Shown piece by piece: positions 5,765 through 28,867 of a DNA stretch of 64,000 nt; position 1 is the stretch's first letter, and each line of letters opens with the position of its first letter. The position numbers and the translations under genes are program-made. The stretch is from Pseudomonadota bacterium. GTDB lineage: Bacteria > Pseudomonadota > Gammaproteobacteria > Steroidobacterales > Woeseiaceae. The notes below the pieces were generated by a model that was not told the origin of the DNA, did not search any database, and saw only the letters and a program-made list of their open reading frames with translations. The DNA lies in assembly GCA_022563505.1 (NCBI GenBank), contig JADFNG010000003.1, positions 1 through 64,000 of the forward strand, in the 5' to 3' direction.

Positions 5765-5854
5765 ATTCTGACTACCGATACTGTTGCGGTAATTGTGCTG
5801 TCATTATAGCCCCTCTGAGAAATGGCCGCCTGAGCGGCACGAAGGAACGCGCCA

Positions 5855-6676
5855 ATGAAGCTGCCGCTCTACCTCGACCGCATCGACTACGATGGAGCCG
5901 TCGAACCGGATTTCGCGACACTCTCTGCGTTACAGGAAGCGCATGTTTGTTCGGTGCCGTTCGAAAATCTGGATGTTCAGTTAGGTCGCCCGCTGTCCAT
6001 TCGAATTGAAGACGCTTATGAAAAAATTGTAACGCATGGGCGGGGCGGCTGGTGCTATGAACAAAACGGTTTGTTTGGCTGGGTGTTATCGGAGATTGGG
6101 TTTGGCGTTACACGAATTGCTGCCAGCGTCATGCGCGAGCAAGCTGGCAATGCGTCCGCGGCAAGCCATCTTTGTCTGCTGGTGACAATGCCTGAGTCCG
6201 AGACGAAATACCTGGTCGATGTTGGTTTTGGCGGCAGCATGCTCACGCCTGTTCCACTGCTGGAAGCTCAATACGATCAACCACCTTTCAGTCTCGGATT
6301 GGAGCGGCTGGATGATCAATACTGGCAATACTGGGAGGATCTGGGCGATGGAAAATTCAGTTTCGATTTCACTGAAGATCCGGCGTGTGAACTGGCGCTG
6401 GCCAAAAAATGCGAAAGTCTCCAAAGTGACCCTGGGTCACACTTCGTATTGAACCTGGTCGCACAACGACGCTCTCGCGAGCAGCACTTTAGTTTGCGGG
6501 GCCGGGTATTTCGTGTATCCAAAGTGAATGGTATGGAGTCGCAAACACTGGATTCGCCGGAAGCATTGGTTGCAATTCTCGCGAACGAGTTTCGACTGCA
6601 CGTTGATGGCGTTGCTGATCTCTGGCCTGAAATTGTTGCACGGCATGAACAACTCTTTGGGCCCGATACTTCCTGA
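5855..6676 (+). CDS. Arylamine N-acetyltransferase
   Basis: VPFENLDVQLGRPLSI and RGGWCYEQNGLF catalytic Cys motif; HLCLLV / YLVDVGFGG. Confidence 0.9.
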   Translation: MKLPLYLDRIDYDGAVEPDFATLSALQEAHVCSVPFENLDVQLGRPLSIRIEDAYEKIVTHGRGGWCYEQNGLFGWVLSEIGFGVTRIAASVMREQAGNASAASHLCLLVTMPESETKYLVDVGFGGSMLTPVPLLEAQYDQPPFSLGLERLDDQYWQYWEDLGDGKFSFDFTEDPACELALAKKCESLQSDPGSHFVLNLVAQRRSREQHFSLRGRVFRVSKVNGMESQTLDSPEALVAILANEFRLHVDGVADLWPEIVARHEQLFGPDTS

Positions 6677-7136
6677 CGGCTAAGGAACAAGCATGGCTGC
6701 ATTGCCAATCGCAAGAGTGGCTGCCAGTACCGAGAAACAGAATCCTATTCGTAATGCTGTCAGCACGACTGAATCCCTCGCAGGTATTGCTGAGGTCGCG
6801 CGCGCAAGACATGGATGCGCTGACTGCGCTACTAGCGGGCCCGCAGATATCCGGGCGAATCTACACGCTTCCAGGCGTAATCAATTACGACACCATCGCG
6901 ACCTTTATCGACCATCACCTCGCTGAACGTGAACGCGGCCCTCGCGATACTGGGAATTGAGCAAAGCAGAGTGGTTGTTACAGGCCGGCAATCCCGCGGC
7001 CGATTGACATTCACAATACGGCCAATGCCATCCTTGCTGGTTGTTGCACATGGCATCGAGAAAATGCACCTGAACCAACGATGTGCGGTAGTCTTGCCAA
7101 GACACTAACCGGCTGGAGTGGTGTGAGGATGAAGCA

Positions 7137-24955: not shown

Positions 24956-25285
24956 ATGCTACGCGCAAATGTTCACCTCGCCCTGCATGCGTTGGTGCCC
25001 GCGGTCATCGCGGCGGCGTTCTGGCGCGATAAATTCTGGCGCACCTGGCTGACTCTGGTTGCGACCATGGTCATCGATCTGGATCACCTGCTTGCCGACC
25101 CGGTGTATGATGCGAACCGCTGTAGCATCGGCTTTCATCCTTTGCATTCTTACCCTGCAATCGCGGCTTTTGGCGCGGCGGCGCTCTGGCCACGATTGCG
25201 ATTGATCGCAATGGGGCTCCTGATTCACATGGCATTGGACGGTATTGACTGCGTATGGATTTGTTATGAACAGCCACCTCAATAA
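24956..25285 (+). CDS. DUF6122-like small membrane protein
   Basis: HLALHALVPAVIAAAFWRDKFWRTWLTLVATMVIDLDHLLADPVYD. Confidence 0.7.
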   Translation: MLRANVHLALHALVPAVIAAAFWRDKFWRTWLTLVATMVIDLDHLLADPVYDANRCSIGFHPLHSYPAIAAFGAAALWPRLRLIAMGLLIHMALDGIDCVWICYEQPPQ

Positions 25286-26099
25286 ATTTTCACGCAGCGG
25301 TCTGCTGCTATCCATGCTCGTATTCGCGGCTTGCGCAGCCGGCCCGCGAGAGATGCCGTATCCGGCTTTTATTGAGGCCGATGCGTTGCCGGACGTATTC
25401 ATGGTTGGCTTGCCGGGCATCCGCGCGAAACAGCTGGCGGGGAATCCTGATACACGTCGCTCCAGTAACCGGCTGCTATTGCCGCCGAAGTGGACATTTG
25501 GCACCGGTGCGGCCCCTGACAAGAGTGTCGAGATCTATGTGCTTGCCGGCGAGATTCAGTTGGGAGACTTCAAGCTTGGTCCGGGAGGTTACGCTTACAT
25601 ACCGCCTGGCTCGATGGGATTGCGTATGCAGACCGAAGCTGGCGCATCGCTGTTGTATTTTCTGGACGATGCGAATCCTGCCAGTATCATCCAGACACCC
25701 ATGATCCTGAGTCGCGATATTCTGAATTGGCAGCCGATTTCCGATGACCCGAACGATGTCGGGGTGTCGAGCAAGGAATTACGCTTTGACCCGGGAAGCG
25801 GTGCGCGGACGGAACTATTGCGGATTGAAGCGGGCGCGACCAGGCCGTGGATGCAATCCACCGTGGCGGAGGAGGGCTACCTGCTGGAGGGCAGCTACCA
25901 GCACAGCGAATGCGTTGATGGCAAGATCATTACCGCCCGCTACGCGCCAGGTGGCTACTACCATCGACCAGCCGGTGCCATTAACGGGAGTCTGTCCGGC
26001 GACAGTGCAGCAGTGTGGCTGGTGCGGACGCTGGGCCATGGTACGACGACGGTGGTTGCTGCGTGTACCGCGCAGACTCCTGGCCCGGACTATTCATGA
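25266..26099 (+). CDS. Cupin-like DUF4437-type lipoprotein
   Basis: AACAAGPREM lipobox; VEIYVLAGEIQLGDFKLGPGGYAYIPPGS; second cupin half. Confidence 0.75.
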   Translation: MNSHLNKFSRSGLLLSMLVFAACAAGPREMPYPAFIEADALPDVFMVGLPGIRAKQLAGNPDTRRSSNRLLLPPKWTFGTGAAPDKSVEIYVLAGEIQLGDFKLGPGGYAYIPPGSMGLRMQTEAGASLLYFLDDANPASIIQTPMILSRDILNWQPISDDPNDVGVSSKELRFDPGSGARTELLRIEAGATRPWMQSTVAEEGYLLEGSYQHSECVDGKIITARYAPGGYYHRPAGAINGSLSGDSAAVWLVRTLGHGTTTVVAACTAQTPGPDYS

Positions 26100-26113
26100 A
26101 TTGTCCGGACTGG
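26082..26113. repeat. Short palindrome matching ends of the 27.7 kb MITE
   Basis: ggcccggactattcatgaattgtccggactgg. Confidence 0.65.
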
Positions 26114-26126
26114 TTCGGTTGCGCCG

Positions 26127-26651
26127 CTACCGCTTGATAAATTTCGCAATTCCTGCGCCCAGTTTCATTATTTTTTGCAGCGTTGGCGTCGGCATTTCCC
26201 GAATCTTTTCGTACCATTCGCTGGTCGTTTCCAAGAACTGAAGCATATTCCTGACCCGCTCTTTCGTCGTTTCGTCCGTGCCTTTCTCCGCATCTATTTC
26301 TTCGGCACATTGTCTCAGCATCAACAAGGTTGGATTCAACTCACGCTGTTTGCGTTGCTCGATGATCACGCGAAACAGGTCCCAGACGTCGTGCAGGGAT
26401 TCGAAGTAATCCCGGCGGTCGCCGAGAATATGCGTCATCTTGACCAGGCCATAACTTTGCAGCTCGCGGATACTGGTGCTGACATTGGAGCGTGCGACGG
26501 ACAGCAAATCGACGATCTCGTCGGCATGGAGAGGTTTGGGCGACAGATACAGCAGCGCCTGAATCTGCGCGACGGTCCGATTGGTTCCCCAACGGGTCCC
26601 CATCTCACCCCAATGCAAGACATACTTTTGAACCGCCGGTGACATTTCCAT
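26127..26651 (-). CDS. GbsR/MarR family transcriptional regulator
   Basis: GTRWGTNRTVAQIQALLYLSPKPLHADEIVDLLSVARSNVSTSIRELQSYGLV. Confidence 0.85.
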   Translation of the reverse strand: MEMSPAVQKYVLHWGEMGTRWGTNRTVAQIQALLYLSPKPLHADEIVDLLSVARSNVSTSIRELQSYGLVKMTHILGDRRDYFESLHDVWDLFRVIIEQRKQRELNPTLLMLRQCAEEIDAEKGTDETTKERVRNMLQFLETTSEWYEKIREMPTPTLQKIMKLGAGIAKFIKR

Positions 26652-26704
26652 AGTGTTCTTTCATTTCTGTCAAAACAGAAATCTAGGAAATTACTGCGGT
26701 GGCG

Positions 26705-27703
26705 TCAAGTCCGCGAGCTTGACCCGGAGCGAGCAGGGCTTGTGGCGACCAGGATGGCGCGGCGCGGCGCGGGCCATCCTTCGACGGTTCTTGTGGGATC
26801 TTCAGGATCCAGCGCTGCGTGCAACGATTCGAAAGGCATCCATCGCGTGGAGCGTTGTTCGTCCACCGTCGTCGCCGTGACATCGGCCAGCGTGATATCG
26901 ATATATCCGCTGCGAGCCAGCCACACGGTCAGTTCCGCTATGCTCGGTAGCAACCAGACATTGCGCATCCGTGCATAGCGATTTTCGGGTGTTCTTGCAC
27001 AGGCTTCTTCATTGGGCAGCACCAGTGTTTCCAGCACCAGTTCGCCCCCGGGTTTCAGCGCATCCCGCAACTGCTGTAAATGCGTCAGTGGTGAGCGCTG
27101 GTGATAAAGAACTCCCATCGAGAATACCGTATCGAACGCGCGCATCTGCGCTGGCAGGTCGTGCAGCCTGAGTGGCAGCACATGCACAGGCTGGGGCTCA
27201 ATGAAACTTGCGATGGCCCGATATTGCACGACGTACAGCAGCGTCGGGTCGATACCGATAACCATCCTTGCGCCCTGGCCGCGCATGCGCAGCGCGTAGT
27301 AACCATTGCCACTGCCGACGTCGAGTACCAGGCGATCCTTGAGAGGGCTTATCGCTGCACGCACGCGATCCCACTTGAGATTGGAGCGCCATTCGGCGTC
27401 GATCACGACACCGCCGATATCGAACGGCCCCTTGCGCCACGGTAGCAAACGCAGCAACGCATCCCGGGTGGCGCTTTGCTGGTCGTGATTCAGCTTGAGG
27501 TCAGGCGCTCCGATGGCCGCGGAACCCAGTTCTGCAGCCTGTCGCTGCATCGACGGCAAACTGTCCAGCGCATCGCGCCACTCCCGAAGCTTGCCGTGTG
27601 CGGTATCCGCAATGCGCTCGGCAAGCAATGGTTGCAGTTCCGAGGCCCACGAAGACAGACCTTCTGCATCCAGATCGCCGCGTAATCTTTCGAGCTCAAG
27701 CAT
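26705..27703 (-). CDS. cmoB: tRNA U34 carboxymethyltransferase
   Basis: LPWRKGPFDIGGVVIDAEWRSNLKWDRV; FDTVFSMGVLYHQRSPLTHL; GELVLETLVL. Confidence 0.95.
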   Translation of the reverse strand: MLELERLRGDLDAEGLSSWASELQPLLAERIADTAHGKLREWRDALDSLPSMQRQAAELGSAAIGAPDLKLNHDQQSATRDALLRLLPWRKGPFDIGGVVIDAEWRSNLKWDRVRAAISPLKDRLVLDVGSGNGYYALRMRGQGARMVIGIDPTLLYVVQYRAIASFIEPQPVHVLPLRLHDLPAQMRAFDTVFSMGVLYHQRSPLTHLQQLRDALKPGGELVLETLVLPNEEACARTPENRYARMRNVWLLPSIAELTVWLARSGYIDITLADVTATTVDEQRSTRWMPFESLHAALDPEDPTRTVEGWPAPRRAILVATSPARSGSSSRT

Positions 27704-27705
27704 GC

Positions 27706-27922
27706 CTAGCCCGGACTATCCGCGAATTCACTCGCGCCCTTGCTTGATCTTTGTTTACACAAGGAATTTTCCTCCCTCGGAAATACACACTGATATTCCG
27801 CTCGGTCGGATATTTCCTTGTGCAAACAAATCTCTGCCCGCCCTGAGGGTTGTCGCCAGACAATCCGAGGAAGTACTCCTGGGGTGCAATCATCGCGGTG
27901 ATTCATGAATAGTCCGGGCTAG
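27706..27922. mobile_element. MITE-like hairpin element, ~209 bp, flanked by CTAG
   Basis: ctagcccggactat...atagtccgggctag perfect 14-bp terminal inverted repeat including CTAG both sides; internal repeat tgtttacacaaggaa/ttccttgtgcaaaca. Confidence 0.75.
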
Positions 27923-28644
27923 CGAATCGCCACGAGTGATACGAAATTGAAGTAACGCAGCCAGACACCGACATGCTGGAAACCGGCTGCGAGCATGCGT
28001 GCCTTGTGCGTGGCGACACTTTCCGGCACCAGCACATTCTCGATCGCCTCTCTTTTGCGACTGATTTCCAGTTCGCTATAGGCATGCCGGCGCTTGAAGT
28101 TGTGGTGTAAATCGATCAGCAAGGCCTCAATGCCAGGGTCTTCATCGACAACTTTTTCAGACAGCACGAATACTCCACCGGGCCGCATTCCCTCAGCTAT
28201 TCTCCCTATCATAGGCTGGCGTTCGTCAATCGGCAGAAATTGCAGCGTGTAATTCATCACCACCATCGACGCATTGTCGATCGGCGTGCAGCGCACATCG
28301 TCCGCAACGATGTCGACGGGAATGTCGCTTTTGTCTGCAGCAATGATCTGCTTGCAACGCGACACCATCGCCGGCGCGTTGTCGATTGCGATGATCCTGC
28401 ATCCGCTCACGTCGATTCCCTGGCGCATCGCCAGCGTCGCCGCTGCCAACGAACAACCGAGATCGTAGCAATGGCTGTCCGGCTGGACGTACTGCCGTGC
28501 GAGAGCGCGAATCGCACGGATCGATGCCTCATACCCGGGGATGGAGCGCCGCAGCATGTCCGGGAAGACGTCGACGACCGCTTCGTTGAATTCGAATGTG
28601 CCTGTGCCAGCGTTTTGCTGTGTATAAATTTCATCCCGTGGCAT
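27919..28644 (-). CDS. cmoA: Carboxy-S-adenosyl-L-methionine synthase
   Basis: FEFNEAVVDVFPDMLRRSIPGYEASIRAIRALARQYVQPDSHCYDLGCSLAAATLAMR. Confidence 0.95.
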   Translation of the reverse strand: MPRDEIYTQQNAGTGTFEFNEAVVDVFPDMLRRSIPGYEASIRAIRALARQYVQPDSHCYDLGCSLAAATLAMRQGIDVSGCRIIAIDNAPAMVSRCKQIIAADKSDIPVDIVADDVRCTPIDNASMVVMNYTLQFLPIDERQPMIGRIAEGMRPGGVFVLSEKVVDEDPGIEALLIDLHHNFKRRHAYSELEISRKREAIENVLVPESVATHKARMLAAGFQHVGVWLRYFNFVSLVAIR

Positions 28645-28867
28645 GTGTGTTTCCTGCTGCTTGGTGTTGGCTGTGGTCCATTGCATCTGCTGGATGGGTG
28701 CTCGCATGCAAATTAACAGCAAGATCGCTATATAATCGACGATATTTCCCGATTTTACCTCGTTTTTGAGGTAAATTGGTCGATTGACCGAGAGAATCGC
28801 TGTTTTTCGGGCTTGCTGTCGGGCGCTACTGTGGGACAATCGCGCCAACCGTAGCATGGGACATTCG

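Follow-up and report, generated by a model that had tools for sequence, protein, structure and literature searches.

A recent, probably IS1380-mobilized MITE insertion in the stop codon at the cmoA-cmoB junction

The 209-bp element that separates cmoA from cmoB in the 64,000-nucleotide stretch of DNA analyzed here (hereafter, the window) is a real and recent MITE insertion of the IS1380 type, located in a stop codon. Our preferred reading, to which we assign a probability of roughly 0.85, is that this MITE was mobilized by IS1380 transposases, with YTAR (mostly CTAG) as their target, that it inserted at the cmoA/cmoB junction and that its effect on cmoB is likely to be mild. The placement of the element among IS1380-mobilized MITEs is based on the existence of CTAG-flanked IS1380 elements with the same ends and on the presence, in the host genome, of IS1380 copies with related ends. 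This kind of element is already known, and what is new, as far as could be checked, is its assignment to IS1380 and its tendency to occupy stop codons; no earlier report of IS1380 MITEs was found in the open-access literature searched. A MITE family present in several phyla is now tied to IS1380 transposases.

The element and its empty site

Both genes lie on the minus strand, in an operon with the order cmoA, element, cmoB, and the element sits exactly between them. The carboxy-SAM synthase encoded by cmoA (27919-28857), for which homology begins at about residue 72 of the longest ORF, was identified in a protein-family search as a match to TIGR00740, and the tRNA U34 carboxymethyltransferase encoded by cmoB (26705-27703) as a match to TIGR00452. 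Read along the minus strand, cmoA closes with GATTCGC TAG (27921-27919) and is followed by the 209-bp element (27710-27918, minus strand; ends CCCGGACTAT..ATAGTCCGGG), a second CTAG, the dinucleotide GC and the ATG of cmoB (27703-27701). The element was orientated by RNA fold stability, which is greater on the cmoAB-sense strand. The two CTAGs, both unstranded features, are the copies of a 4-bp target duplication. The right one (27919-27922) supplies the TAG stop codon of cmoA, as the preliminary description of this DNA had recognized, and the left one (27706-27709) provides a minus-strand TAG stop (27708-27706) 2 nt upstream of the cmoB ATG. The same description had placed the left end of the element 2 bp from the cmoB ATG, which is correct for the left CTAG (gap 27705-27704) but not for the element proper, which lies 6 bp away.

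The outer inverted repeat, CTAGs included, spans 27706-27727 and 27901-27922 (22 nt, 86%). The terminal inverted repeat (TIR) at 27901-27918 on the minus strand, with consensus form CCCGGACTATTCATGAAT, includes the self-palindrome ATTCATGAAT. Within the element, an unstranded internal hairpin (27750-27830) is formed by arms at 27750-27772 and 27808-27830 (23 nt, 87%); a second internal repeat had been described at 27752-27766/27814-27828, and it is indeed present, but larger. The overall claim of a palindromic hairpin MITE between duplicated CTAGs was confirmed in coordinates and repeats. Folded as cmoAB-sense RNA, the element reaches -105.9 kcal/mol (z = -7.5), a stability equaled in none of 200 shuffled sequences. 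With 209 bp, TIRs and no transposase gene, it falls within the size range of MITEs (approximately 30-300 bp). Its ORFs are all short, none of them has a Pfam or NCBIfam family above cut-off, and no Rfam family was identified (19.7 bits for the top hit, where the gathering score is 111).

The element is neither single-copy nor conserved as ordinary intergenic sequence, the two conditions named beforehand as grounds for abandoning the MITE interpretation. Further copies and empty sites, both of which the preliminary description had proposed looking for, were found. The same genome carries a second near-full copy, 87% identical, on contig C7, a 161-bp copy on C76, an 80-bp copy on C130 and partial copies including one on C52, with CTAG at every end seen, as well as solo TIR palindromes. 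In the near-full copy (L002:1501-1716; G000:C7), the TAG of the right CTAG ends a 492-codon ORF. The cmoA-cmoB junction is empty in all 29 relatives with cmoAB, where cmoB starts no more than 47 nt, and mostly 2-3 nt, from the cmoA stop. In the same-genus genome G001, an alignment of about 80% over 25202-28612 breaks exactly at the element, leaving aligned segments (25202-27703 and 27919-28612) that just 2 bp separate. Elsewhere, copies are bounded by matched non-CTAG flanks (TTAA/TTAA, TTAG/TTAG and CTAA/CTAA), and the flanking 4 bp therefore belong to the duplicated target, outside the element, which settles what had been offered as a candidate duplication. With both a target duplication and an empty site, the sequence at 27710-27918 is a genuine prokaryotic MITE copy.

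The strength of the hairpin also suggests a different reading, in which the cmoA-cmoB junction harbors a resident regulatory RNA under selection, the element acting as either an attenuator or a processing site. Besides being very stable, the fold has conserved paired columns: among 24 gammaproteobacterial copies, both-sided (compensatory) changes were found in 18 of 55 pairs, as compared with 7.6 +/- 1.9 in shuffles (0 of 500 reaching the observed value) and 3-9 in slid controls, and the internal hairpin is kept across these copies, with compensatory changes. Judged from the aligned copies, pairing is conserved, through either selection or hairpin-templated correction. The consensus also folds more strongly on one strand (-63.8 vs -25.3 kcal/mol), which at this locus is the cmoAB-sense strand. 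Selection on one RNA strand is nevertheless not claimed, because the evidence is mixed. Unbiased pairs present 14 WC>GU and 3 WC>AC changes, but the excess of wobble-type substitutions appears in unpaired columns too and is not seen in the Nitrospira family, and copies show no preferred orientation relative to flanking co-directional genes (8 vs 5; 10 vs 10). These last observations, together with the empty junction in 29 of 29 relatives, the occurrence of the same sequence at unrelated loci and the lack of any terminator-like site in the element (no intrinsic terminator, defined by a T run after a G+C-rich hairpin, was found within 27600-27922), make a resident regulatory RNA very improbable.

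IS1380 ends and the candidate helper

An autonomous IS with the ends of the element, another item on the original list of checks, was found in locus L114. This IS1380 element is 1678 bp long, has MITE-type ends (0 and 1 mismatch) and is flanked by CTAG on both sides, thereby combining the same ends with the same target. It encodes a 470-aa IS1380 transposase (NF033539, E-value 1e-109, above the family cut-off; PF13701, E-value 7e-126). Near matches are provided by further IS1380 elements in G457 and L210, with ends CCCGGATTATTCA(T/C)GAA closely resembling those of the MITE; by pairwise identity, the only measure on which transposases were compared, their transposases are 88.5% and 87.5% identical, respectively, to that of the host genome's own IS1380. 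The host copies (C42 and C116) have CTAG flanks and ends CCTGCATTATTCATGAA, three mismatches from the MITE consensus: CTAG and TATTCATGAA are present, but CCTGCA replaces CCCGGA at the tip. Both copies are cut by contig ends, and the exact helper IS was not found in the host assembly, which is 82.5% complete. We propose that IS1380-family DDE transposases would act in trans on ends of the form CCCGGA(C/T)TATTCATGAA, and that insertion would take place into 4-bp YTAR targets, mostly CTAG, with duplication of the target.

The sequence shared by the MITE and IS1380 elements is limited to the terminal 17-20 bp, and the closed 4.3-Mb chromosome of N. defluvii (G167, with loci including L074) harbors 47 TIR matches and no IS1380 transposase as searched with PF13701. 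Both facts would fit a reading in which the MITE is moved by another transposase family, such as an IS5-group enzyme with CTAG-like targets, and its match to IS1380 ends is coincidental or shared; the N. defluvii helper may also have been lost or be a different one. Weighing against another family are the 17-18 bp of end identity and identical CTAG duplication in L114, the close matches in G457 and L210, and the fact that CTAG also adjoins CCCGGA or CCTGCA ends in the remaining IS1380 elements inspected from this order. Mobilization by a transposase outside IS1380 is hence regarded as improbable.

The candidate helper agrees in ends, target duplication and size with known IS1380 ISs such as IS1247, ISPme1 and ISEcp1, of which IS1247 is listed with 1672 bp, IR 16/13 and a 5-bp duplication (PMC3281130). 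The MITE departs from these ISs in being devoid of a transposase and in its 4-bp YTAR duplication, as opposed to the 5 bp listed for IS1247 (PMC3281130). IS1380 transposases serve as an outgroup to the piggyBac superfamily, which uses TTAA and for which TTAG and CTAA are listed as alternative targets (PMC10813416), and this outgroup position is consistent with the YTAR targets observed here. As in piggyBac, a 4-bp TTAA-like target is duplicated, with TTAG and CTAA appearing here as matched pairs, but the MITE is bacterial and non-autonomous, and favors CTAG over TTAA. TIMEs, the Tn3-derived MITEs, are likewise assigned to a known transposase family by their ends, but they have Tn3-type ends and 5-6 bp duplications and are usually single-copy (PMC4133298). 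The element resembles Correia elements (CREE) and other prokaryotic MITEs in being short, palindromic, multicopy and able to enter transcripts (PMC10969869), and differs from Correia elements in its ends and target, the CREE target being TA (PMC9330008).

Stop codons and the consequence for cmoB

CTAG is strongly depleted in the window, with 31 instances observed versus 245 expected from base composition. Considering ORFs of at least 120 aa, the duplicated TAG was an ORF stop in 26 of 54 clean insertions, as compared to 38 of 165 background CTAGs, defined as the other CTAGs in the same loci (odds ratio 3.1, P = 9e-4); the enrichment was less marked when the ORF cut-off was changed (P = 0.06 at 100 aa and P = 0.01 at 150-250 aa). 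The L114 IS likewise lies at a gene end, next to a 463-aa ORF terminating at 2315. A simple rule for the sites at which such elements persist is suggested: since CTAG is scarce, is often a stop codon and is duplicated upon insertion, neither neighbor would lose coding sequence. Insertion at such a CTAG would duplicate the stop and leave the coding sequence unharmed, and insertions at stop CTAGs would be preferentially retained. Survival in a CTAG-poor genome is enough to explain the stop-codon bias, although targeting is also possible. Stop-codon placement of Correia elements was not found in the literature passages searched. In three loci (L129:3364-3397, L102:5029-5209 and L107:1642-1822), ORFs converge on one CTAG at the insertion; the palindromic target is a TAG stop on both strands, and its duplication gives each ORF its own.

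At the cmoA-cmoB junction, a 66-codon ORF (27706-27906, minus strand) extends from an ATG in the TIR to the TAG of the left CTAG, starting 12 nt after the cmoA stop and ending 2 nt before cmoB. This bridging ORF is open in other in-phase copies, without a codon-position signature. In the gammaproteobacterial 161-bp class (e.g. L086, L188), every in-phase copy with the ATG can be read without a stop, on either strand, between that TIR ATG and the target-duplication TAG, and neutral simulation expected more stops in this frame (P < 0.0005, both strands). The non-ATG frame of these copies also presents fewer stops than simulated, and substitutions are evenly spread over codon positions (44/40/45). 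On these grounds a conserved peptide was rejected as an explanation for the bridging ORF, and no peptide-level selection is claimed. It is conceivable, if rather unlikely, that the family is adapted to stop codons, with its CTAG preference leading it to TAG stops, a stop on both sides and the ATG of the TIR ATTCATGAAT letting ribosomes translate the element up to the second stop. If so, a split gene pair would still be translationally linked, allowing low-cost residence inside operons.

Rickettsia palindromic elements (RPEs) are noted for inserting in frame within genes. The present elements resemble RPEs, which are named in PMC10969869, in being palindromic and in that their main insert lengths plus the duplication are multiples of three. 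In contrast to RPEs, the CTAG/TIR ends place stops in every frame of intact copies, and an in-frame coding insert or read-through was accordingly discarded.

The pre-insertion junction read CTAG-GC-ATG. The insertion left cmoA intact and, through the duplication of CTAG, the sequence TAG-GC-ATG still precedes cmoB; the two genes are now separated by a highly structured RNA segment of 213 nt. The preliminary description implied that the insertion had cost cmoB its Shine-Dalgarno sequence, a view that the computed energies do not support. The reconstructed 20-mer upstream of cmoB before insertion scores -2.4 kcal/mol and that of the same-genus relative -1.9 kcal/mol, no better than random 20-mers (mean -2.9, 10th percentile -5.9), and the present value is -4.6 kcal/mol. 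Given the lack of a strong Shine-Dalgarno sequence upstream of cmoB both before and after insertion, cmoB was probably stop-start coupled originally.

As initially suggested, folding of the transcript could plausibly uncouple or attenuate cmoB. Coupling may persist in attenuated form, via the restored TAG-GC-ATG and the 66-codon ORF, with cmoB translation presumably reduced and not abolished. The most likely effect would be a mild one, consisting in lower cmoB expression via weakened coupling, polarity or endonuclease cleavage, partially offset by ribosomes that reinitiate at the TIR ATG and translate the bridge as far as the second TAG. Cleavage of the element transcript by RNase III is possible by analogy with the Correia transcripts of Neisseria, which are cut by this enzyme at the TIRs (PMC10969869). 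It is also a serious possibility, somewhat short of even odds, that the insertion is neutral and that cmoB is unaffected thanks to reinitiation or to a separate promoter: the duplicated TAG preserves the geometry of the cmoA stop and cmoB start, the bridging ORF is open and no better Shine-Dalgarno sequence existed before. Against neutrality stands the strongly structured RNA, 213 nt long, that has come between two genes separated in most relatives by 2-3 nt, and a mild reduction of cmoB expression is preferred. With the junction empty in each relative compared, the cmoA-cmoB copy constitutes a clean natural experiment on translational coupling, and the coupling in question links two enzymes of a single tRNA-modification step.

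Family distribution and remnants

A contig scan using CTAG plus the exact 18-bp TIR end as query identified 102 contig stretches with exact matches in Nitrospirota, Gamma- and Deltaproteobacteria and other phyla, most of them Nitrospira-group and gammaproteobacterial, with main size classes of 26, 161, 173 and 209 bp. TIR matches reach 105 in one Nitrospiraceae MAG, in addition to the 47 in N. defluvii, with 0 in controls. A match to the element was found in only 10 of 147 genomes of the host's order, and an exact or one-mismatch CTAG plus TIR in 4 of 369 genomes of its class, a patchy distribution of the kind expected for a mobile element. A tblastn search of plasmids returned nothing.

The 26-bp class comprises 20 palindromic copies. 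Two sets of orthologous sites, L064 (60 bp, 5844-5903) versus L136 (26 bp, 6976-7001) and L124 (161 bp, 1385-1545) versus L132 (26 bp, 6531-6556), show that these palindromes are in-place products of deletion between the two TIR ATTCATGAAT direct repeats, which rules out the notion that they are the smallest independent transposons. Collapse in place to 26 bp accounts for puzzling perfect palindromes in unrelated genomes. A separate 26-bp TIR palindrome in the window (26084-26109), with CTGG on either side (26080-26113, unstranded), is interpreted as a member of this MITE family reduced by internal deletion; at the equivalent position the same-genus relative lacks a palindrome. This palindrome supplies the end (..PGPDYS*) of the ORF at 25245-26099, beside a convergent MarR-like gene.
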